A stretch of 23,650 nucleotides of DNA, from positions 1 through 23,650 of the IMG/VR virus record IMGVR_UViG_3300046007_006128. One strand, given 5' to 3'. A model generated the notes under the pieces. It did not search any database, was not told the origin of the DNA, and saw only the letters and a program-made list of their open reading frames with translations. A program made the position numbers and the translations under genes. The DNA comes from a virus. Shown piece by piece: positions 412 through 21,441 of the stretch (positions are counted from its first letter, which is position 1; each line of letters starts with the position of its first letter).

Positions 412-3213
412 ATGGCTACACCAGAGCAATTAGCACAGTTTCAAAATTTGGTGCAAAGCGGTGATTTTGCTAAAGCGGCTACGCTTGCACAGGGTCAGGG
501 ATTTGGCGCTCAAGATGTGACCAATTACATCAATACTAATCCTGCCTTATTTGGGTTTCCTAGCGAAGTTCCGTTAAGTGCGGTTCAGCCATTTTTTACG
601 ACAGGAACAACTGGTGCGCCAGCCACGACTGCAACTACAACAACTACGCCAACGAAACCGACAACCCCAACGACTCCAACGACCCCAACAACACCGTCAA
701 CCACAACCCCGGTAACAACGGTCACTACGCCCACAACGACCCCGACTCAGACCGGGGGTAGTTTTACTCAAGGTGCGCCGCTTCCGAACATTACGACCAC
801 CCAGACGCAGGCAACCTCTGCCCCGTCTTGGTACATGGATTACTTGTCCGGGCTTGCCCAAAAGAGCGCTCAGGCCGCTCAAGGGGCTCAATATGTCGGT
901 GCATCCCCGCTTCAACAGCGGGCTTTTGATCTGACCGGTCAAGCGGCTGGCCAATATGCTCCGATGCTCCAAAAGGGTGCGGGGTTTGCTGAGACCGCCG
1001 GTGGTGCTAAGGCTTATCAAGACATCGATAAGTACATGAACCCCTATGTTCAGGATGTGGTTAAACGCATCGGGGAACTAGGGCAACGTCAAATTGAGCA
1101 AAATATCGCCCCCGGTGTTACTTCCGGTCTTGTCGGGGCTGGTCAGTTTGGCTCCAAAAGGGGCGCAGAAGCTCTTGGACAGACTCTCAGGGACGTCCAG
1201 CAAAACATCCTAGGTCAGCAGTCCCAAGCCCTACAGTCGGGCTATACGCAAGCCTTAGCGGCCGCACAAGGGGATCTATCCCGTCAGTTGACCGCTGGCC
1301 AGCAGTTAGGCGCCCTTGCCCAAGCCGGTCAGGGCATGAATGTCGCTGATATCAATGCCCTTGCAACCCTCGGTGCGCAGCAACAAGCCATCCAGCAAAA
1401 TAAGGAACTCTTTCCTCTACAGCAGCTGGCTAATCAGGCGGCAGTCATGCGTGGCTACGCAGTCCCGACCAGTGTTTCAACCCAATACACCGGACCGATT
1501 CCGGGAGCATATGCGGCTTCCCCGCTTCAGCAGATCGCTGGTATTGCTGCCCTTCTTGGTGGAATGAGTAATACCAAATTGGGTACAACCGCAGGCAACG
1601 CAATAAGCAAAGCCCTAAGCAGCATATTTAGTAGCGGCTCTAGCGGCACAAGCGGCGGAAATATGACCGATTTAGATTGGTTAAATTGGGCAAAATCCGG
1701 ATCTTCTGGAACACCGGGGGTGCCGTTTTCGTTAGAAGACCTAGCGAATATGCCAGTAAAAGACGGTGGCTCCATAAAAAAGTATCGTCACGGCGGTGAT
1801 GTGCGCGGATACGCCACCGCTGGTTCGGTAAGCCCGCCCCCTATCCCGGGGGGTCTATCCGTAGACTCAAAAGCCCGCGAAGATTATTTCGCTGAACTAA
1901 ACAAGTTACTTGAGGCAATTGAGGAACGGGGTGAAGGCGGCCCAAACCTGTTTCAGGTAGCTGGAGCCTTACTTGATCCCGGTCGAACCGGTGGAGCCGG
2001 AGAGGCTTTAGGTCGGGCATCTGCCGTAATGGGCGAGAAGATTGAAAGAGAGCGGGAGAGAATGTTGCCGCTTGCTCAAGCTAGAGCCAGCATTGCAGGT
2101 CAGAAATTCCAAATTGAAAACGAAGCACGGGCTCTTGAGTTGGTTGCCAAAACTTTGGGAACGACTCCAGAAGTCATTGGTAATCAAATTTCCGACGGCA
2201 CGGTTCCGACCGATATGCTTTCAAGAATGACTCCGGGGTTATTTCTGACGGTCAATAAACTTGATCCGAAACTTGGTTCTGCCTTGAAGTCCATGTTTGA
2301 TATGGATGTTGAGCGCAAGAAACTTGTTCAGGCCGATGTCACCGCCGGAATGAATTACGCTGAAGGAATTGCTAAGTACGGTTCAGACTTTGCAAAACTT
2401 CTGCCAAGAGGAATTAGGGTTCCGGGTATGCCAGAGCCGGTAACGGCTGGGGCTACAAGCTCGCCACAGCCTCCGAGACCTGCTGTTCCAACTTCTGCCG
2501 CCCCGGCGAAGGCTCCTCCAGAGGCTACGTCAGATTTAGAGGGAATGCCTCTAGCCGCCCGAGCTGATGTGTTGCGTGACCGTGCCAAGACAAGGGAAGA
2601 AGAAACTAAGCCCATGCGGGCAGACATCATGCAGTGGACGCCCCAAGCGATCAGTTTGGCTAATAACCGTTTAGATGAGCTGATTGACATCTCTAATGAT
2701 CCCGAGGGAGCTAGAGTTTTTGGTCTGATGCAAAAGCAAGGTATTTTGCCTGCCATGGCCGCTGCAGCTCAAGAAGCCGTAAGGGTTGGACAAACCACAG
2801 TGACGTTCCCTGTTCAGCAGTTTTTAGAAAAACTAAATCTAACCCCGCCGCAACAGAGAATTTTGCGTAGAGCATCTCAGTTGTTGACTGAAGAGTTTTT
2901 TGAAAGCGCTAAACTTACTCGATCCGTATTGGGACCGCAGATGTCTAATGCCGATACGATCATCCAGCAGCGCCCCATGGCAACCATTGAGGATGCCGCA
3001 TCAACGGTTGATTACTGGGCCAAACAGCGCAAACTTCTAAACTATCAGCGTAGAGATATGTTTGGAGCGCTGGATAGATGGGATCGTCGAGTTGGTGTAC
3101 AGGCCCCGGCAAGCCAATTCTTCACTTCACGCGAGTATCAAGAGATCGTTAATAAGTACGACGACCTGCAGAAACAGTTCCGTCAGAAGTATCCCGGCTT
3201 TGGAGCACGATAA
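412..3213 (+). CDS. Large virion-type protein with Thr/Pro linker (probable internal virion or tail protein)
   Basis: This 933-residue protein starts at ATG 412, with AGGGG seven bases upstream. Residues 1-60 form a small N-terminal domain. Residues 63-114 are a Thr/Pro linker containing four tandem TTP units (84-95). Residues about 140-350 are Gln/Ala-rich and helical, with the YMNPYVQDVVKRI and GAGQFGSKRG type motifs seen in many uncharacterised aquatic phage structural proteins. Around 445-475 there is a Gly-rich hinge with GGSIKKYRHGGDVRGYA. The C-terminal half is mostly helical, with a second Pro/Ala-rich linker near 690-720. No enzyme motif is visible. Position at the end of the late operon, and the following Gly-rich protein, fit an ejected internal virion protein, but this is inference. 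Confidence 0.75.
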   Translation: MATPEQLAQFQNLVQSGDFAKAATLAQGQGFGAQDVTNYINTNPALFGFPSEVPLSAVQPFFTTGTTGAPATTATTTTTPTKPTTPTTPTTPTTPSTTTPVTTVTTPTTTPTQTGGSFTQGAPLPNITTTQTQATSAPSWYMDYLSGLAQKSAQAAQGAQYVGASPLQQRAFDLTGQAAGQYAPMLQKGAGFAETAGGAKAYQDIDKYMNPYVQDVVKRIGELGQRQIEQNIAPGVTSGLVGAGQFGSKRGAEALGQTLRDVQQNILGQQSQALQSGYTQALAAAQGDLSRQLTAGQQLGALAQAGQGMNVADINALATLGAQQQAIQQNKELFPLQQLANQAAVMRGYAVPTSVSTQYTGPIPGAYAASPLQQIAGIAALLGGMSNTKLGTTAGNAISKALSSIFSSGSSGTSGGNMTDLDWLNWAKSGSSGTPGVPFSLEDLANMPVKDGGSIKKYRHGGDVRGYATAGSVSPPPIPGGLSVDSKAREDYFAELNKLLEAIEERGEGGPNLFQVAGALLDPGRTGGAGEALGRASAVMGEKIERERERMLPLAQARASIAGQKFQIENEARALELVAKTLGTTPEVIGNQISDGTVPTDMLSRMTPGLFLTVNKLDPKLGSALKSMFDMDVERKKLVQADVTAGMNYAEGIAKYGSDFAKLLPRGIRVPGMPEPVTAGATSSPQPPRPAVPTSAAPAKAPPEATSDLEGMPLAARADVLRDRAKTREEETKPMRADIMQWTPQAISLANNRLDELIDISNDPEGARVFGLMQKQGILPAMAAAAQEAVRVGQTTVTFPVQQFLEKLNLTPPQQRILRRASQLLTEEFFESAKLTRSVLGPQMSNADTIIQQRPMATIEDAASTVDYWAKQRKLLNYQRRDMFGALDRWDRRVGVQAPASQFFTSREYQEIVNKYDDLQKQFRQKYPGFGAR

Positions 3214-7486: not shown

Positions 7487-7544
7487 GCCTCTTGCAATGG
7501 CTGAAAAAGAGTGTAACATCCAGTTATCGTCTGAAAGGAATGAG

Positions 7545-7754
7545 ATGACTTTAAAAGAGTATTTTTCAACTAAACCCTATGGCTCGAAAGCCAAGCTGGC
7601 TAAGGCGTTGGGGATCAGTAGGACATGGCTTGGGCAGATCACAAACGGGTTCAAAGTACCCAGTCCAGAGCTGTCCTTAGAGATCGAGCGGATTACGGAG
7701 GGATGTGTAAAGCGGGTAGACCTTCGCCCAGACCTATTCGGGGAGGTCAAGTGA
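7545..7754 (+). CDS. Cro/YdaS-like HTH transcriptional regulator
   Basis: A 69-residue DNA-binding protein. The helix-turn-helix is KAKLAKALGISRTWLGQIT (about residues 13-31), with the recognition helix after GIS. The end KRVDLRPDLFGEVK is the 'LRPDLF' tail typical of YdaS/Cro-like phage regulators. The ATG at 7545 is preferred because AAAGGA lies six bases before it; an in-frame ATG at 7497 has no ribosome binding site and would put extra residues over the TGTAAC half-site. Its place beside a divergent promoter region with operator A suggests a Cro- or repressor-type switch for the early operons, perhaps also acting at copies B and C. Confidence 0.8.
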   Translation: MTLKEYFSTKPYGSKAKLAKALGISRTWLGQITNGFKVPSPELSLEIERITEGCVKRVDLRPDLFGEVK

Positions 7755-8455
7755 ACTACTACAAATTTCATATTGGAGACTACCTGACCCGGACCATGCA
7801 CCTAGCGGATGCCGAGGACTTGGCCTACAGGCGGCTTTTAGACCTTTACTACATCACTGAGAAGCCCCTGACCTTGGATATGGGTGCGCTTGCCAAGAGG
7901 GTACGGCTTGATTTGGAAGTCATCGAGCCGGTGCTAAATGAGTTCTTTGAACGGACGGTTAACGGATGGTTTAACGAGCGTTGCGAAAACGAAATAAAAA
8001 AGTATCAAAAATTCGTTAAACAAAACGTTGAAAACGCCAAAAAAAGCGTGTCTGTCAGGAAAAAGAAAGCCTCCAAGAGCCGCGCCAGTAAAGGCTCTGA
8101 ACCGGCGGTTAACCAGCCGTCAACCGGCGGCGAGCCGATGGGGGGCATAACCAATAACCAAGAACCAATAAAAGAAACCCCTATATCCCCTTTCGATGAG
8201 TTTTGGTCGATTTGGCCTACCGGACCTCGAAAGATCAACAAAACCGGTTGCCGGGACAAGTGGCTGGCTCATGGGCTAAACGATGTTGCCAAACAGATCC
8301 TGACCCATGTCCGGGCGATGAAGCAGACCCAGCAGTGGAAGGAGGGGTTTGTGCCTGCTCCGATGACCTACATCAACCAGTCCCGGTGGCTTGATGGCGA
8401 CCCTAACGGGGACAGTCCAAATGAGGGAGTTTTTGCTGGGAGGAAGGTCGTATGA
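7751..8455 (+). CDS. DUF1376-type replication initiator
   Basis: This 234-residue protein starts at GTG 7751, overlapping the previous stop by four bases (GTGA), with GGAGG six bases upstream. Residues 1-85 match the DUF1376 pattern (NYYKFHIGDYL, AYRRLLDLYYITEKPL), a winged-helix-type domain of phage replication proteins. A lysine-rich, low-complexity linker covers about 85-150. Residues 155-234 (FDEFWSIWPTGPRK, APMTYINQSRWLDG) form the C-terminal domain found in DnaT/DnaD-like initiators and helicase loaders. The DnaB-like helicase lies one gene downstream, so this protein probably recognises the origin and loads it. The linker-coding DNA contains tandem repeats and an A/T-rich block, as in lambda O. 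Confidence 0.8.
   Translation: MNYYKFHIGDYLTRTMHLADAEDLAYRRLLDLYYITEKPLTLDMGALAKRVRLDLEVIEPVLNEFFERTVNGWFNERCENEIKKYQKFVKQNVENAKKSVSVRKKKASKSRASKGSEPAVNQPSTGGEPMGGITNNQEPIKETPISPFDEFWSIWPTGPRKINKTGCRDKWLAHGLNDVAKQILTHVRAMKQTQQWKEGFVPAPMTYINQSRWLDGDPNGDSPNEGVFAGRKVV
7950..7983. repeat. 11/12-bp tandem repeats, array 1
   Basis: Three adjacent units: AACGGACGGTT (7950-7960), AACGGATGGTTT (7961-7972) and AACGAGCGTTG (7973-7983). They share the AAC start and G/C-rich core ending in GTT with the arrays at 8100, 14981 and 15466. The period is not a multiple of three, so amino-acid repetition does not explain it. Confidence 0.6.
8100..8132. repeat. 11-bp tandem repeats, array 2
   Basis: Three units at exact 11-bp spacing: AACCGGCGGTT (8100-8110), AACCAGCCGTC (8111-8121) and AACCGGCGGCG (8122-8132). 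The first nine bases of units 1 and 3 are identical. The unit is close to palindromic (AACCGNCGGTT). It is translated as part of the low-complexity linker of the initiator. Confidence 0.65.
8149..8169. repeat. 7-bp triplicate in the initiator linker
   Basis: Three consecutive 7-bp units: AACCAAT, AACCAAG, AACCAAT. They encode the 'TNNQEPI' type linker that I recall from other prophage replication proteins with this domain. The DNA repeat crosses the reading frame, so it may be selected as DNA. Confidence 0.6.
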
Positions 8456-8799
8456 CCGGAGATGTGCCTCTCAGACGCATGAGGATGAACCGTAAGGCTC
8501 CCAAAGCGGTGTGGGTATGGGTAGGTATCAACCCATCATCTATAGCCTCGCTATGGCCTGAAATTCCTGAGTTCTGGAATCACCCCGAGGTGGACATTTT
8601 GCCCTCGGACCGAATCGATCTTTTGGACCTTCGGTTTGCGGTCGGGTTACAGGTTCACATCGATGGCAACGATACCCGGGATCGGATTCTGTCTGCCCAC
8701 CGAGCTTTCAGTCTTGCCGGGGCCAAGTCGGTTTTCACCCTGATCGAGGGAAATCTTATCTACAACGAGGGAGTAAAAGTTGAACATCCTGCAGTCTGA
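8452..8799 (+). CDS. Hypothetical protein between initiator and helicase
   Basis: This 115-residue protein has an ATG overlapping the initiator stop by four bases (ATGA), with AGGAAGG upstream. The N-terminus is basic (RRMRMNRKAPKAVWVWV); the rest is mixed, with FWNHPEVDILPSDRIDLLDLR and a C-terminal FTLIEGNLIYNEG. There is no signal peptide or metal motif. Its place between initiator and helicase genes suggests a replication role, such as a loader or accessory subunit, but I do not recognise the family. It overlaps the helicase start by 20 bases. Confidence 0.65.
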   Translation: MTGDVPLRRMRMNRKAPKAVWVWVGINPSSIASLWPEIPEFWNHPEVDILPSDRIDLLDLRFAVGLQVHIDGNDTRDRILSAHRAFSLAGAKSVFTLIEGNLIYNEGVKVEHPAV

Positions 8800-9730
8800 C
8801 CAGATCGATTTCTCTGCATACCTACACGCCACCGAGCCGCAGCAGAAGATTCGGGAGGCCGGGGTTTGGTTAGAGGACATCAAGCAAGACGTAGTCAATC
8901 CACCCAAGGAGGCGCTGATCGCCATGCCTTGGACTAAGACTCAGGCGTCGTTCCATTTCCGACCGGGAGAGGTCACGGTGTATGCCGGAGGCAACGGGGG
9001 AGGGAAATCCCTAATCACCGGGCAGATCGCCATGGGACTCATAAAGCAGGGTCAAAAGGTCTGTATCGCCTCATTTGAGATGAAACCCAAGCGGTCGATC
9101 TATCGAATGATCAGACAGTTCTCAGGCGAGAACATCGATAAACCGCGGTTTTCCGATAAGAGTCGGTACATCGGAGAGCTGGTGGATCGATTCAGAGACT
9201 TTTCTGCAAATCACTTGTGGTTTTACGACCAGCAGGGGACGACAAATGCACAGCAAGTGATCGCCATGGCGAGATATTGCGCGGTAAAACTTGGTATCAC
9301 CCATGTATTTATCGACTCACTTATGAAATGCGTCCCAAGCGAAGACGATTACAACGCTCAAAAGTATTTTGTTGATGAGCTGACAGCCTTGGCCCGGGAT
9401 CACAACATTCATATTCATTTAATTCATCACATCAGAAAACTTACGAGCGAAGAAGTGACGCCGAATAAAAACGACATCAAGGGAACCGGATCGATTGCAG
9501 ATCAGGTGGATAACGTTTTGCTTGTCTGGAGAAACAAAAAGAAGGAGCATTCCGCACAGGCAGGTAATAGCGTAGATAACGCTACACCAGATGCGATGTT
9601 GATGTGTGAGAAGCAGCGAAACGGGGAAAGCGAAGATTGGTATTCACTTTGGTTTCATAAAGACAGCCATCAGTTTTTGGAAAACCCAGACTCAATGCCG
9701 ATGACGTTTGATCAGAAAGGCGATTTTTAA
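8780..9730 (+). CDS. DnaB-like replicative helicase (RecA-fold ATPase)
   Basis: A 316-residue RecA-fold ATPase of the DnaB/gp4 helicase type. Walker A is GGNGGGKS (70-77), E100 in ASFEM matches the catalytic glutamate of DnaB 'SLEM', Walker B is HVFIDSL with D179, the region IHLIHHIRK (211-220) matches motif H3, and KGTGSIADQVDNVLLVWRNK matches the last motif. There is no N-terminal primase domain and little space for a DnaB N-terminal domain, so it is a minimal helicase. The start is TTG 8780, with GGGAG upstream. With the DUF1376 initiator it should unwind the phage origin. No polymerase is seen here, so host polymerase or a gene elsewhere is needed. Confidence 0.85.
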   Translation: MNILQSDQIDFSAYLHATEPQQKIREAGVWLEDIKQDVVNPPKEALIAMPWTKTQASFHFRPGEVTVYAGGNGGGKSLITGQIAMGLIKQGQKVCIASFEMKPKRSIYRMIRQFSGENIDKPRFSDKSRYIGELVDRFRDFSANHLWFYDQQGTTNAQQVIAMARYCAVKLGITHVFIDSLMKCVPSEDDYNAQKYFVDELTALARDHNIHIHLIHHIRKLTSEEVTPNKNDIKGTGSIADQVDNVLLVWRNKKKEHSAQAGNSVDNATPDAMLMCEKQRNGESEDWYSLWFHKDSHQFLENPDSMPMTFDQKGDF

Positions 9731-14760: not shown

Positions 14761-14983
14761 GCTGACCGTGCATCCGGCCTATTGCGATTATCTTGCCCAC
14801 TTGATCTCTAAGCACTTGAAAGCCAACGACTACAACCGACTGATCGACTCTGTCGGGAAGGTTCGGTTTGACTTGGGCAAGGACGGGAGTATGCTATCCA
14901 CAACCAAGCGAATTACGGTGATTGATGTGCAGGGTAAGGCTTACACCATCACCATCGAAGAGGCTAAGAATAAGACAATTTAA
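14753..14983 (+). CDS. Small hypothetical protein
   Basis: This 76-residue protein starts MDELTVHPAYCDYLAHLISK. ATG 14753 overlaps the previous stop by eight bases. The first half is helical, the second strand-rich (KRITVIDVQGKAYTITIEE). Its stop (14981-14983) is the first three bases of the 11-bp tandem array that fills the gap to the next gene. Not recognised. Confidence 0.6.
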   Translation: MDELTVHPAYCDYLAHLISKHLKANDYNRLIDSVGKVRFDLGKDGSMLSTTKRITVIDVQGKAYTITIEEAKNKTI

Positions 14984-15024
14984 CCGACGGTTAACCGGCC
15001 GTTAACGGTTGGCTAACCGCCCGT
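14981..15024. repeat. Four tandem 11-bp repeats, array 3
   Basis: The units are TAACCGACGGT, TAACCGGCCGT, TAACGGTTGGC and TAACCGCCCGT, at 14981, 14992, 15003 and 15014, with exact 11-bp spacing. The array is non-coding apart from the first three bases, which are a stop codon. It runs up to the Shine-Dalgarno of the next gene. Units also read as overlapping short palindromes such as GGTTAACC. The consensus matches the arrays in the initiator gene. Confidence 0.75.
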
Positions 15025-15036
15025 TGAGAGGACAAA

Positions 15037-15387: not shown

Positions 15388-16029
15388 TTGCCCGATATCA
15401 ATTTGATTGGAATAAGGGTGATGCCTGAAACAACTAAGAAGCCGAAAGCCCCGAAGGAGCAAGCCAACGGCTCAACCACTAGCTCAACGGATGGTTCAAC
15501 CATCGGCCAACCGCCGGTTCAAGACCCGCCAAAACAAAAGACCGGTCGCCCGACAGACTACAACCTAAAACTCGCCGCAGAGATCTGTACTCGTATATCT
15601 AACGGAGAAGCATTAAGACAGATCTGTATGAGGGAAGATATGCCGGTTCAGTCGGCTGTGTATGTGTGGTTGGCGCGTCATCCTGAATTCAAGGAGATGT
15701 ACACACGCGCACGGGAAGAACAGGCCGATACTTTGGCTGACGAGATTCAGGCTATTGCTGACGAAACGCCTGAGATGAACCCGATCTACACCAAGGACGG
15801 GGAGCTGATCCGCATCGAGCTGCACGGCGCCTATATCCAGTGGCAGAAGAACCGGATCGATGCCCGCAAATGGGTGGCCGCCAAGCTCAAGCCCCGGAAG
15901 TACGGTGACCGGGTGGAGCTGACCGGGGATAAAGACAACCCCCTGCACATCAACGCTCAGGTGGAGACCAAGACCCTCTTTTCGACCATCCTGCAGAACC
16001 TAGAGCTAAAGAAGCAGGCTCAGGAATGA
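15388..16029 (+). CDS. terS: Terminase small subunit (terS)
   Basis: A terminase small subunit of the Sf6 gp1-like HTH type, 213 residues from TTG 15388 (GAGAGG eight bases upstream) or 202 from ATG 15421. After a low-complexity Thr/Ser/Pro tract, GRPTDYNLKLAAEICTRIS begins the DNA-binding domain with the HTH LRQICMREDMPVQSAVYVWL, then HPEFKEMYTRAREEQADTL and DEIQAIADET. The ring-forming subunit recognises the packaging site and delivers DNA to TerL. The low-complexity tract is encoded by 11/12-bp repeats related to the other arrays. The next gene starts three bases after its stop. Confidence 0.88.
   Translation: MPDINLIGIRVMPETTKKPKAPKEQANGSTTSSTDGSTIGQPPVQDPPKQKTGRPTDYNLKLAAEICTRISNGEALRQICMREDMPVQSAVYVWLARHPEFKEMYTRAREEQADTLADEIQAIADETPEMNPIYTKDGELIRIELHGAYIQWQKNRIDARKWVAAKLKPRKYGDRVELTGDKDNPLHINAQVETKTLFSTILQNLELKKQAQE
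15466..15520. repeat. 11/12-bp repeats at the 5' end of terS, array 4
   Basis: Units beginning AAC at 15466, 15474, 15486, 15498 and 15509: an 8-base partial unit, then AACCACTAGCTC, AACGGATGGTTC, AACCATCGGCC and AACCGCCGGTTC. A 15-bp palindrome, GATGGTT-C-AACCATC (15490-15504), spans two units. The DNA is translated as a Thr/Ser/Pro-rich tract of TerS. It is less regular than array 3. Confidence 0.5.
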
Positions 16030-17439: not shown

Positions 17440-17617
17440 CCAACTGATGCTAACCCTTGACCGACTTCTCTCAAACGGCTGGATCGATGAAGCCTACGCA
17501 AAGAAGAAGGGGATCGGTCGTCTGCCGGCGCAAATCCATAGACTCAGGGCAAAGGGCTACACCATCTTGGCAATCCGTAACGGCAATAAGTCTAAGTATG
17601 TGATCGGGGAGCCCTGA
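17429..17617 (+). CDS. Small winged-helix DNA-binding protein
   Basis: This 62-residue protein starts MQRSQLMLTLDRLLSNGWID, overlapping terL by 11 bases; a second in-frame ATG at 17447 is possible. The pattern helix (LTLDRLLSNGWI), helix (GRLPAQIHRLRAKGYT) and a strand pair (ILAIRNGNKSKYVI) is that of a short winged helix, like small HTH proteins I recall next to terminases. The next gene begins at its stop (TGATG). It may bind the packaging region or regulate late genes. Confidence 0.65.
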   Translation: MQRSQLMLTLDRLLSNGWIDEAYAKKKGIGRLPAQIHRLRAKGYTILAIRNGNKSKYVIGEP

Positions 17618-20600
17618 TGCCAATTAAAGCAGCCCTAACGATTGGAGCTAAAGGCGCAGGCAAGGTAGCCAAGGCCACTGACCAAGAGGCTTTGGTTGAG
17701 GCGGCTAAGGCGGCGGATCGGGCGGCGGCTGGACGGCGGGCTGCAGATGTAGCTAAGGCGACAGAGCCGATGAAGATCTCCGAGGCGTTAGGTAACCTAA
17801 ACGTCGAGGGTAAGGGCAAATTAAAAGTCACCCAGTCCGACCGCACTAGAGTCGGCGGCGGGAATATCGGCGGCGCCATGTTCTCCGGTCTACAGCAGGT
17901 CGATCCGTTTTATGAGGGTTTGGTCTGGGGTGTCGGTGAAAAGGGCACAGCCAGCAAAATGATTGGCCAGTCCGATCCTTTTACATTTTGGTCAACCATC
18001 CTTGGCGCCGAAGACCAGTTGAAGTCAAACCCTCTGGTGTTCAATAAACTGCGTAAAGGTTTCACTGACGCCATGAAAGAGGGCAAGCTCACTAAAGAGC
18101 TTGAGAAGAAGATCAATCACAATCTGGCCCTGACCTTCGGGGAGGGTGCCGAGATCCGCGACCCGAAGATTTGGCAGAAGGCCGACACCTTTGAGAAACG
18201 GGCAGCTCTTGCAGACATTATGTTGGGCAAGGGCATCCCACCATCCAAGGGCGGCGTTGCATTAGGCGGTGAGAAGAGCGGCAAGGGCGTGATCTTCCGT
18301 CCGACTGATATTCTGAAACAGGAGACTGAGCCGCTTTTGTTACACCCAGAGCACGGTGGAGATGTCCCAACGTTTGCGGTTGGACCGCGGCTATTTAACC
18401 TTGAGGGAAATGTCGTTCACCGTCCAGACCTGCACCCGGGTTTCCCTTATCTTCTGACCGGCGAAGATACTGGCATGGTGTTTAAGCCCGGTGAGGCCGA
18501 GAAGATCATGCGGGATTATGCGCAGAGGCTGAAAGATCAAGGCAAGGCAAGGATCGGTTATTACGAGTGGACCTTGGGTGAAAAGGGTAAGGGCCTGCCG
18601 ACTCAAGACATCAACGAGGAATATCTCACCTACCTGCAAAAGCAGGGTATGGCCGAGGGCGGCCCAGTTGAGGATCAAGATCTGAGCCTAGAAGGCGTCA
18701 TAGCTGCCGGAGAAAAAGATCGTGAGGGTATTACGGATGAGGCACTGTTCTATCTAAACCAAGAATTGCGGGAAAAAATTAGTCAATTAAGGGCCGGTCA
18801 GATAGGCGGCTCTGAGCTTCAAAAGTTTTTTCCGAATTACAGCAGTTTTGAAATTGAACGGATGTTTGGTTTTACAGACACAGAGAGCGCAAAGAATCCA
18901 GAGATCACCAATCCGTCATCTAAAAGAGAAGAGTTTGAACGAACAATAGACATATCAAATGCGCTAAACAGAGAATTAGCGGAAGATCAAAGTCGTGGAT
19001 TGTGGTACCCAAACCTTGCCTCCCGTAAACGCAGGGGCGAAATATTTGCGCAAGGAGGATCTGTCGGATCACCCGAGGGCATCCCCTCGATGGTGTCAGA
19101 CCTAGAGGCGCAGTATCAGGCATATAAGGCCGGTGGTGCGGTCCAGATGCGGGACGGCGGCACACCGATTACGGATGAGATCAGCGGGATGTTGCCCGCC
19201 CTAGATCCGAATCAAGAGTCTTATGGAAGTCCGACCTTTGAGGCTACGAAATTCATCGCCTCGCAGATTCCTAAGGCTTTGGTCTCCCCGTTTGTCGGGG
19301 CTTACAAGACCGTTACTTCAGGGAAGTTTGGAACCCAAGAAGGTATCAAGGCAGGGGAAAAGGCTATGGAAGAGTTCATGCTTCCAAGCGGAGAGCTATC
19401 GCCTGAGGCCGCAGAGAAGGTCGGTCAGTTTGGTAAGTTTATGGAGGAGCTTGAGACCAAGTACAAGCTGCCCCCGATAATGCCCGAGGTGTTTGGGCCG
19501 GTTACGGGATCGCTGACGGGGATGGGGCCGCAAGCCCGATCCATCGCAGGTAAGGCAGGCACGGCCGTGAAAGAGGCGGTATCTGAAGTCCCGCCGCTAC
19601 CGGTTGGCCTATCGATTGAGCCGGTTGGTAAACCTATCGCAGAGGTAATCAAACCGGGCAAGGTAAAGGTGCCGGCTACGGATCTAGGCTTTTACTCCCC
19701 GATTGAAAAGGCTTTGGAGAACAGCCCCCGGAAAGCCGGTCCCGGCCAAGCCTTCATTAACGACATCATGAAGTTCAGCCCCAGCTCAGGCGAGCTTGAG
19801 GGAACGGGCATTATTGACTGGCTGAAGACCCAAAAGAATGTGACCAAGCAGGATGTGCTGGACTACCTAAGCGGCAATAAGATTGAGATTCAGGAGACCG
19901 TCCGGGGAACAATTCTTACTCCGGATGAGCGTCTGCGATTAAATGACATCAATCGGCTGATATCTAAAGGTGAATATGTTCCTCTAGAAGAAGAAAAATG
20001 GTTTGAGGCAACAAAAGCAAGACTGCAAGAGTTTAAAGAGCCAAAGTATGAAAGCGAAAATTTAATCCTTCCGGGCGGCAAGAACTATCGGGAGATCGTG
20101 CTGAGTTTGCCTGAAGTAAAAAATGCCCCGATTGATAGTGGAAAATCTGCGGCCACAATGTTGTTTGAGCGTGAAATGATGGAGAAATATGGCGGTCAAG
20201 ATTTTCCATCGGTATATCAAAAATTAACGCCCAATGAAATTGACAAGTACGATATGTATGTCCGAGAAGATATAAATAGCCGTAAAACCGAATCAATTTT
20301 GCAAGACAAGCGCAATAACTTCCAATCCTCCCACTTCCCCGAAAAAAACATCCTCGCCCATATGCGGACGCAGGATATGAACATCGGCGGCAAGAAGACT
20401 TTGGTTGTTGAAGAAATTCAATCGGATTGGCATCAGGAGGGGCGTGAAAAGGGTTACAAGCCAAACGATTTACAAAACATGAAATTGCCTAAAAATTATT
20501 CAGTAAAACAAGATGCAAGTTCAAACGAAAATCCTTATGCCGTATTTGATGAACAGGGAAATCCATTGACTGCTGGATTTCACAAAGATAAAGAATCTGC

Positions 20601-21441
20601 CCTTAATGAATTTTTTAGCAATAAATTTAAAAATGCTGTGCCTAATGCTCCATTTAAAAAGGACTGGTATCAGCTAGCCATCAAGCGGCTGATGAAATAC
20701 GCCGCAGATAACGACTATGACCAGATCGCCTTAGTCGGGCCTGAGGAACAGATCCGCCGTGGCAGCCTTGGAACCTATGTTGATGGCCTGACCTTTGAAA
20801 AGAATAAGGATGGCTCCATCAAATTGCTGGCCGAGAAGGGTGAGTCGGTGGTCTTGGATAAGACCGTCAAGCCTGAAGATCTTGAGCTTTATGTCGGCAA
20901 GAATGTGGCCAAGAAGATCCTAAGCACTGAGGACGTAGACGGGACGCTTACTGGGGACGATCTGATGATCGGCGGGGAAGGGATGCGCCAATACTACGGC
21001 CGCAGCTATCCGGACTCAATCAACCGGATCGGCAAGAAGTACAACGCCAATATTGAGAAGCGTGATCACATCCTCAAAGAGTTTGATTCAAAAGATGTTG
21101 AAACAATACCGACCGGGGAAGCGGATCGGTTTGGCAGGGAAATGATGGCCTATGGAGTTAAAGACCCCGAGACAGACGAATATATTTCGTTTGAGTATGA
21201 CTTTGAGAAAGCCTTGTCTGAGGCCAATAAGAAAGCGCCTCGTACTTCCATGTGGTTTATGGACCTACCGGCAAACCTAAAATCCGATGTGAAGATTGGC
21301 CAGCCCTACAAAAAGGGTGGCGCAGTCAAAATGCAACGAGGCGGCCCAATCATCGCCCCGTTTAACACCGTTCCAGACGTAACAGATGCGGGAAATTTAA
21401 TTAACTTTTCCCTCCAACAGGAGCTAAAACGCTATGCCTGA
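17617..21441 (+). CDS. Large polyvalent protein, virion-linked, inserted between terL and portal
   Basis: This 1274-residue protein has an ATG at 17617 with GGGGAG five bases upstream, overlapping the previous stop by one base. Residues about 55-345 form a conserved-looking domain (KVTQSDRTRVGGGNIGG, then VVHRPDLHPGFPYLLTGED). A Gly-rich spacer region (about 350-600) carries GGSV, KAGGAVQMRDGG and similar motifs. Residues about 885-1260 hold the domain I recall from large polyvalent phage proteins: EEIQSDWHQ (932-940), APFKKDWYQLAIKRLMKYAA (1010-1029), then GGEGMRQYYG (1119-1128). The end has KKGGAVKMQRGGPI. The activity of that domain is not established. It is probably packaged in or associated with the virion. 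Confidence 0.75.
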   Translation: MPIKAALTIGAKGAGKVAKATDQEALVEAAKAADRAAAGRRAADVAKATEPMKISEALGNLNVEGKGKLKVTQSDRTRVGGGNIGGAMFSGLQQVDPFYEGLVWGVGEKGTASKMIGQSDPFTFWSTILGAEDQLKSNPLVFNKLRKGFTDAMKEGKLTKELEKKINHNLALTFGEGAEIRDPKIWQKADTFEKRAALADIMLGKGIPPSKGGVALGGEKSGKGVIFRPTDILKQETEPLLLHPEHGGDVPTFAVGPRLFNLEGNVVHRPDLHPGFPYLLTGEDTGMVFKPGEAEKIMRDYAQRLKDQGKARIGYYEWTLGEKGKGLPTQDINEEYLTYLQKQGMAEGGPVEDQDLSLEGVIAAGEKDREGITDEALFYLNQELREKISQLRAGQIGGSELQKFFPNYSSFEIERMFGFTDTESAKNPEITNPSSKREEFERTIDISNALNRELAEDQSRGLWYPNLASRKRRGEIFAQGGSVGSPEGIPSMVSDLEAQYQAYKAGGAVQMRDGGTPITDEISGMLPALDPNQESYGSPTFEATKFIASQIPKALVSPFVGAYKTVTSGKFGTQEGIKAGEKAMEEFMLPSGELSPEAAEKVGQFGKFMEELETKYKLPPIMPEVFGPVTGSLTGMGPQARSIAGKAGTAVKEAVSEVPPLPVGLSIEPVGKPIAEVIKPGKVKVPATDLGFYSPIEKALENSPRKAGPGQAFINDIMKFSPSSGELEGTGIIDWLKTQKNVTKQDVLDYLSGNKIEIQETVRGTILTPDERLRLNDINRLISKGEYVPLEEEKWFEATKARLQEFKEPKYESENLILPGGKNYREIVLSLPEVKNAPIDSGKSAATMLFEREMMEKYGGQDFPSVYQKLTPNEIDKYDMYVREDINSRKTESILQDKRNNFQSSHFPEKNILAHMRTQDMNIGGKKTLVVEEIQSDWHQEGREKGYKPNDLQNMKLPKNYSVKQDASSNENPYAVFDEQGNPLTAGFHKDKESALNEFFSNKFKNAVPNAPFKKDWYQLAIKRLMKYAADNDYDQIALVGPEEQIRRGSLGTYVDGLTFEKNKDGSIKLLAEKGESVVLDKTVKPEDLELYVGKNVAKKILSTEDVDGTLTGDDLMIGGEGMRQYYGRSYPDSINRIGKKYNANIEKRDHILKEFDSKDVETIPTGEADRFGREMMAYGVKDPETDEYISFEYDFEKALSEANKKAPRTSMWFMDLPANLKSDVKIGQPYKKGGAVKMQRGGPIIAPFNTVPDVTDAGNLINFSLQQELKRYA

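Follow-up and report, generated by a model that had tools for sequence, protein, structure and literature searches.

In bacteriophage lambda (ori-lambda in gene O) and in the Stx phages the origin of replication lies in the middle of the initiator gene and is made up of iteron direct repeats followed by an A/T-rich tract, with a helicase function encoded next door. The O protein of lambda is also known to bind single strands of the A/T-rich tract (PMC7466680). In the origins of iteron plasmids such as RK2, F and R6K, winged-helix initiators bind the duplex iterons and the repeats of the DUE are bound in single-stranded form (PMC10797057). The Rac prophage of E. coli, for which oriJ has been described as an active origin (PMC3945230), encodes a DUF1376 protein in the gene series ydaS-ydaT-ydaU-ydaV. 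An origin inside the initiator gene is an already known kind of arrangement. For most phages the origin has yet to be mapped, and DUF1376 is referred to as a protein of unknown function in the Pfam database. In the current analysis a DUF1376 gene of a virus and its relatives have been studied, and sequence comparisons suggest, with a probability that we place at roughly 0.78, that this initiator gene contains its own two-part, lambda-like replication origin. As far as seen, the composite layout, the range of phages that share it, and the match between protein tail and iteron described below are new; the search covered open-access literature, subscription papers and preprints being outside its scope, and revealed neither a description of origins in DUF1376 genes nor any relevant occurrence of the repeat strings.

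The window, which is the whole stretch of DNA analysed, is an IMG/VR virus fragment of 23,650 bp. Two close relatives, G003 (a record of 53,987 bp with an end overlap of 126 bp) and G004 (55,765 bp, end overlap 170 bp), appear to be complete, circular assemblies of this kind of phage. The initiator gene has a GTG start that overlaps the stop of the upstream HTH gene (Table 1), and the order YdaS - DUF1376 is Rac-like. One small gene separates the initiator gene from a gene for a DnaB-like helicase, and in relatives the genes neighbouring that of DUF1376 encode helicases, loader-type ATPases or primase-helicases. The helicase gene had been recognised in an earlier sequence-only reading of the window, which also saw no DNA polymerase. 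Both points hold, the former through a match to PF03796; for the latter, no polymerase of family A, B or C (Pol III alpha) was found in the two complete close relatives, which fits the use of the host polymerase. Elsewhere in the window, 9/18-bp repeats at 632-707 encode a Thr/Pro-rich stretch of a 933-residue ORF (412-3213), and a 1274-residue ORF at 17617-21441 weakly matches phrog_7348, a very long phage protein family with the label endolysin.

Table 1. Position of the genes, protein domains and repeats of the window that are discussed in the text
Feature	Position	Strand	Basis or remark
YdaS/Cro-like HTH gene, directly 5' of the initiator gene	7497..7754	+	PF15943, E=6e-11
Replication initiator gene (DUF1376)	7751..8455	+	Pfam PF07120, PHROGs, AF2
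DUF1376 winged-helix domain	7751..7996	+	AF2, Foldseek
11-bp array 1: AACGGACGGTT AACGGATGGTTT AACGAGCG	7950..7983	+	Two clear copies, third shifted by 1
Long helix, residues 75-112 (~38 residues)	7976..8089	+	AF2
A/T-rich stretch, 68% A+T (gene 49%), coding for a Lys-rich helix	7984..8060	+	
Helix-tail motif NAKKSVSVRKKK, SAxxR-like	8033..8068	+	Position whose class matches the iteron class in relatives
11-bp iteron array 2: AACCGGCGGTT AACCAGCCGTC AACCGGCGGCG	8100..8132	+	Position corresponds to the 11-bp arrays of relatives
7-bp repeat array and flank, proposed unwinding/strand-capture element	8147..8177	+	Conserved to the base in distant relatives
C-terminal domain, FDEFWSIWP...INQSRWLDGD	8186..8412	+	PHROG 9474/270 alignment
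DnaB-like helicase gene	8780..9730	+	PF03796, E=1.9e-18
Four tandem copies of the 11-bp unit of the initiator gene, between two small genes	14982..15025	+	Kept in a 95% relative
Further copies of the 11-bp unit, in the N-terminal part of the terminase small-subunit (terS) gene, 15421-16029	~15486..15519	+	

The initiator matches the DUF1376/YdaU model PF07120 with an E-value of 2.6e-22 (79.4 bits against a cut-off of 30.1), and is labelled 'primosomal protein' in PHROGs, its C-terminal part being labelled 'replication initiation protein'. Pfam returns DUF1376 only, with no sign of homology to lambda O. The AF2 model has a winged-helix domain (helices 7-14, 19-35, 43-50 and 54-64, beta wing 66-73) that runs into the long helix, with a mean pLDDT of 92 for the two; the linker encoded by the arrays has low confidence and is partly disordered, and confidence is low in the C-terminal part too. 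One winged helix and the long helix are all that AF2 predicts, with no second winged-helix domain of the kind known from the Rep proteins of iteron plasmids. Foldseek gave weak matches, mostly to winged-helix proteins (MarR family, TM1602, RuvB, ZBP1) and none with an E-value below 0.001, and a PDB sequence search with the initiator likewise gave weak matches. The C-terminal domain has no match in Pfam and is presumed to contact the helicase or its loader.

Within the gene the clearest repeat is the exact triplicate AACCAAT AACCAAG AACCAAT at 8149-8169, which had been pointed out from the sequence and is part of an AACCAAK array spanning 8147-8171 (18 of 25 bases A or T by direct count). The period-7 score of 13.0 has a p-value of 0.002 against synonymous-codon shuffles and was reached in 0 of 300 simulations. 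The earlier reading had included these 7-bp repeats in a candidate origin; their presence is confirmed, and they are now regarded as a main component and not an accessory. The A/T-rich block that it placed between the 11-bp arrays does exist, and has been rejected as the key origin element; it is not the element that is conserved. The two 11-bp arrays that it listed are also present. They are imperfect, with one step of 12 bp rather than 11 in array 1, and their tandem score alone is marginal (p~0.1 against synonymous shuffles). The arrays are nevertheless taken to be real because the motif AACSGNCSGTT, a consensus drawn post hoc, has six exact copies in 23.65 kb against 0.12 expected, all of them clustered. 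Array 1 does not belong to the linker, as had been thought, since its DNA encodes residues 65-76, the wing of the DUF1376 domain; it is confined to the window phage and its close relatives. From array 2 to the 7-bp array there is a gap of 14 nt in the window, where relatives usually have 0-1.

Since the first search for relatives was seeded with NNQEPIKE and was biased, a set of DUF1376 genes blind to the repeats was collected, either with an HMM in Burkholderiales genomes or with the N-terminal domain only, giving 38 clusters. A period-7 score of at least 11 was obtained in 17 of these clusters as against 2 of 168 control frames, and a period-11 score of at least 11 in 11 clusters as against 2 of 168. 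Periods 5, 10, 13, 17, 19 and 20 were at background, and period 8 stood out in a few genes. Tested by synonymous shuffles, period 7 was significant (p<=0.01) in 21 of 37 DUF1376 genes and 0 of 63 controls, and period 11 in 13 of 37 genes and 1 of 63 controls. As the shuffles abolish both periods, the repeats are conserved at the level of DNA, and the check on related phages that the earlier reading had proposed is positive far beyond the window phage. The 11-bp array lies 5' of the 7-bp array in all 45 genes with both, usually with a spacing of 0-1 nt. Exact array sites of the unit classes A and B described below are found 64 times inside the initiator gene and twice elsewhere in 448 kb of flanking DNA.

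The 7-bp array also serves as a marker of DUF1376 genes. Over the 30-31 nt at 8147-8177 the window is matched exactly, or almost exactly, by contigs that encode initiators of about 40% identity. When IMG/VR was searched with the DNA pattern AACCAATAACCAAKAACCAAT alone, at least 120 contigs with an AACCAAK array were obtained, and 100 of the 102 same-strand open frames carrying distinct arrays match DUF1376 among the matches listed; within these loci L006, L007, L009, L010, L011 and the window came through a protein search and the rest through DNA alone. Fifteen of 18 sampled named phage or plasmid loci have a 7-bp array with a score of at least 9, with units that include AACCAAG, AACCATA, TACCCAA and CACCAGA. 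The unit varies by lineage (AACCAAT, AACCATA, AGCCAAT, AGCCATA, CCCATTA, TACCCAA, ACACAAG and CACCAGA), and such changes alter the peptide, yet the step of 7 bp stays. Some DUF1376 genes, for example ydaU of the E. coli Rac prophage, are without a clear 7-bp array.

In L081, where the DUF1376 ORF ends, an in-frame TAA is situated within the 7-bp array, beyond which the same frame goes on to encode the C-terminal domain. In the Moraxella phage Mcat25 (L243, 2498-3314) the DUF1376 frame stops within the array and the region is annotated as two genes. We have rejected the possibility that this array is non-coding, the C-terminal part continuing in another frame as expected of a split gene; a 7-bp unit gained or lost would shift the frame. 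On the - strand near 8226 of L016, an AACCAAT array is located at the far end of a different HTH gene, MerR-like by eye.

The 11-bp units fall into recurrent classes, A (AACGNNCGTTC), B (ATGCGNNCGCA) and C (AACCCANNNNN). Searches with two copies of the DNA alone gave at least 120 contigs for class A and 110 for class B, and a DUF1376 frame runs through the array in 76 of 110 class A loci and 54 of 110 class B loci. When 28 of the remaining proteins were scanned, 20 matched Lin1244_N (PF14297) and 5 had weak matches to DUF1376. At the end of the long helix, just 5' of the array, the protein carries a tail motif that differs by class: AGKxSAxxR with class A, SAxxRW with class B and GGRPxK with class C. 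With regular expressions for the motifs that were written post hoc, after inspection, the iteron class matches the tail motif in 71 of 71 DUF1376 clusters, including GGRPxK with class C. In the loci found from DNA, Lin1244_N proteins included, the class A motif occurs in 92 class A loci and the class B motif in none of them; for class B, the B motif occurs in 73 and the A motif in none. The pairings of classes A and B hold for Lin1244_N initiators as well. The third codon positions of the tail motif are free, which indicates conservation at the protein level, in contrast to the DNA-level conservation of the arrays. Only four independent switches of class are found on well-supported branches; motif and iterons lie within tens of bp of each other, and linkage could therefore keep them together. 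The window has a fourth unit, AACCGNCGGTT, which like its tail NAKKSVSVRKKK resembles class A without matching it, and a search with tandem AACCGNCGGTT retrieved only relatives of the window phage.

Judged from these pairings, the choice of 11-bp repeat seems to be set by the end of the helix that precedes the arrays; it is probably this tail of the long helix, C-terminal to the winged helix, that reads the unit, and not just the N-terminal domain. We lean, with some reserve, towards the view that phage initiators of at least two Pfam families, DUF1376 and Lin1244_N, share a modular, self-contained origin in which the helix tail specifies the class of the 11-bp iterons encoded within the following few dozen bp, with a melting array of 7-bp repeats in DUF1376 or 5-bp repeats in Lin1244_N after them. 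Such a gene would carry the reader and its cognate DNA as a single exchangeable block, and the iteron sequence would be predictable from that of the protein. Several Lin1244_N loci (L255, L266, L273, L281, L291, L297 and others) have class A or B iterons followed by 5-bp AAAGN repeats.

That the two kinds of repeat recur in one order in this gene among widely differing phages makes it very probable that the gene holds its own replication start. Tandem iterons lie inside the coding sequence of the initiator, an A/T-rich tract adjoins them, and a helicase or loader gene stands beside the initiator. Over 90 genes, the 7-bp arrays have 66% A+T as against 53% for the gene. The candidate lambda-like origin of the sequence-only reading stands in so far as the repeats are conserved at the DNA level and ordered; its components are reassigned, with the 7-bp array and not the A/T block as a main part. 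The proposed origin would consist of the 11-bp iterons at 8100-8132, with an extra set at 7950-7983, followed by the A/T-rich 7-bp repeats at 8147-8171. The DUF1376 protein may bind the duplex 11-bp repeats, each of which spans one helical turn, using its winged helix and, most importantly, the end of the long helix. The resulting nucleoprotein array would strain the neighbouring 7-bp repeats and cause their melting, and one strand of these, A/C-rich and almost free of G, would be held in a sequence-specific manner; such a capture is suggested by the precise repetition within the melting tract. The C-terminal domain could then deliver the DnaB-like helicase encoded next door, after which the host polymerase would take over. 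All these steps of binding, melting and loading are inferred. All six circular genomes considered (the two close relatives and four other phages) show a step up in GC skew at the array, and the detrended minimum falls within 1.2 kb of the array in only two of them, a measure confounded by gene orientation.

It is unlikely that the arrays are instead sites for autoregulation of the initiator operon, for packaging or for segregation, read by DUF1376 or by the neighbouring HTH protein. This explanation draws on the copies of the 11-bp unit 5' of and within terS, which are kept in a 95% relative and which an origin does not require, and on the Cro/YdaS-like regulator encoded upstream. The copies near terS are possibly a packaging site or a second regulatory site, and the complete relative has no exact AACSGNCSGTT copy elsewhere. 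However, the other sampled genomes keep their iterons in the initiator gene, by 64 sites to 2, and iterons in the middle of the gene followed by an A/T-rich array occur in phages whose neighbouring regulators differ. With regard to a centromere of the ParR/parC type with 11-bp iterons, ParM/ParR genes had no match among the neighbouring proteins scanned, a subset of the ORFs of the phage. No partition gene was found among these neighbours, and a partition site has been rejected.

Repeats needed at the level of protein, with a linker that requires TNNQEPI-like or MRTQCERNANA-like peptides and a DNA periodicity left by recent duplication, would be in keeping with arrays that, with few exceptions, are translated in frame. 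This is very improbable, as the signal is destroyed by the synonymous shuffles, the peptides differ from unit to unit (THKPL, TQDPL, TQYPIPN) while the 7 bp are kept, the linker is predicted to be disordered, and in Mcat25 and L081 the repeats go on past a stop inside the array. As 7 leaves a remainder of 1 on division by 3, an AACCAAK array encodes the cycle TNNQEPI whichever frame is read. That the three frames of an array yield an identical peptide cycle agrees with the earlier statement that the 11-bp period is not an amino-acid repeat, and the same holds for the 7-bp period. The seventh base of AACCAAK is G wherever T would create an in-frame TAA.

Fainter still is the prospect of an element acting in RNA, in which a G-poor, CC-spaced transcript would be a Rho loading site or similar. 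The composition is suitable, the 7-bp units being rich in A and C and having 4% G in the coding strand, but the palindromic 11-bp duplex units, the fixed order and the match with the helix motif would be left unexplained. Chance repeats in one gene, which the period-11 score of the window taken alone (p~0.1) would allow, are refuted by all the comparative results.

If the origin reading is true, a sequence rule would locate the origin in many phages and prophages of hosts that include at least Vibrio, Acinetobacter, Pseudomonas, Xanthomonas, Moraxella, Methylophilaceae and Chlorobiaceae. DUF1376 and Lin1244_N would gain a function, and their matched pairs of protein motif and iteron would form a natural set for studies of the recognition of origins by initiators. 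The odd repeated peptides of these initiators would merely follow from the translation of DNA repeats in any of the three frames.

By analogy, the layout would correspond to the origins of lambda and of the iteron plasmids. The Lin1244/Lin1753-like proteins (PF14297) are similar to DUF1376 in having class A or B 11-bp units after identical helix-tail motifs and differ in their downstream repeats, which are mostly of 5 bp (AAAGN) and not 7 bp. The Rac prophage has a similar gene order and a DUF1376 protein; unlike the window gene, its ydaU has no 7-bp array and has weak TGTTnAA repeats about 11 bp apart. These TGTTnAA-type repeats of E. coli K-12 (L133, 7510-7590) mark a candidate place for oriJ. 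Compared with the iteron plasmids, to which there is no detectable homology, the repeats here are situated inside the initiator gene, and the initiator has one winged helix and a long helix in place of two winged helices. As in lambda and the Stx phages, direct repeats and then an A/T-rich tract lie in the middle of the initiator gene beside a helicase function. The initiator here is a DUF1376 protein not recognised as O-type by Pfam, the 11-bp units are self-palindromic, the A/T-rich part consists of a tandem 7-bp array, and there are several classes of unit, each paired with a helix motif of its own.
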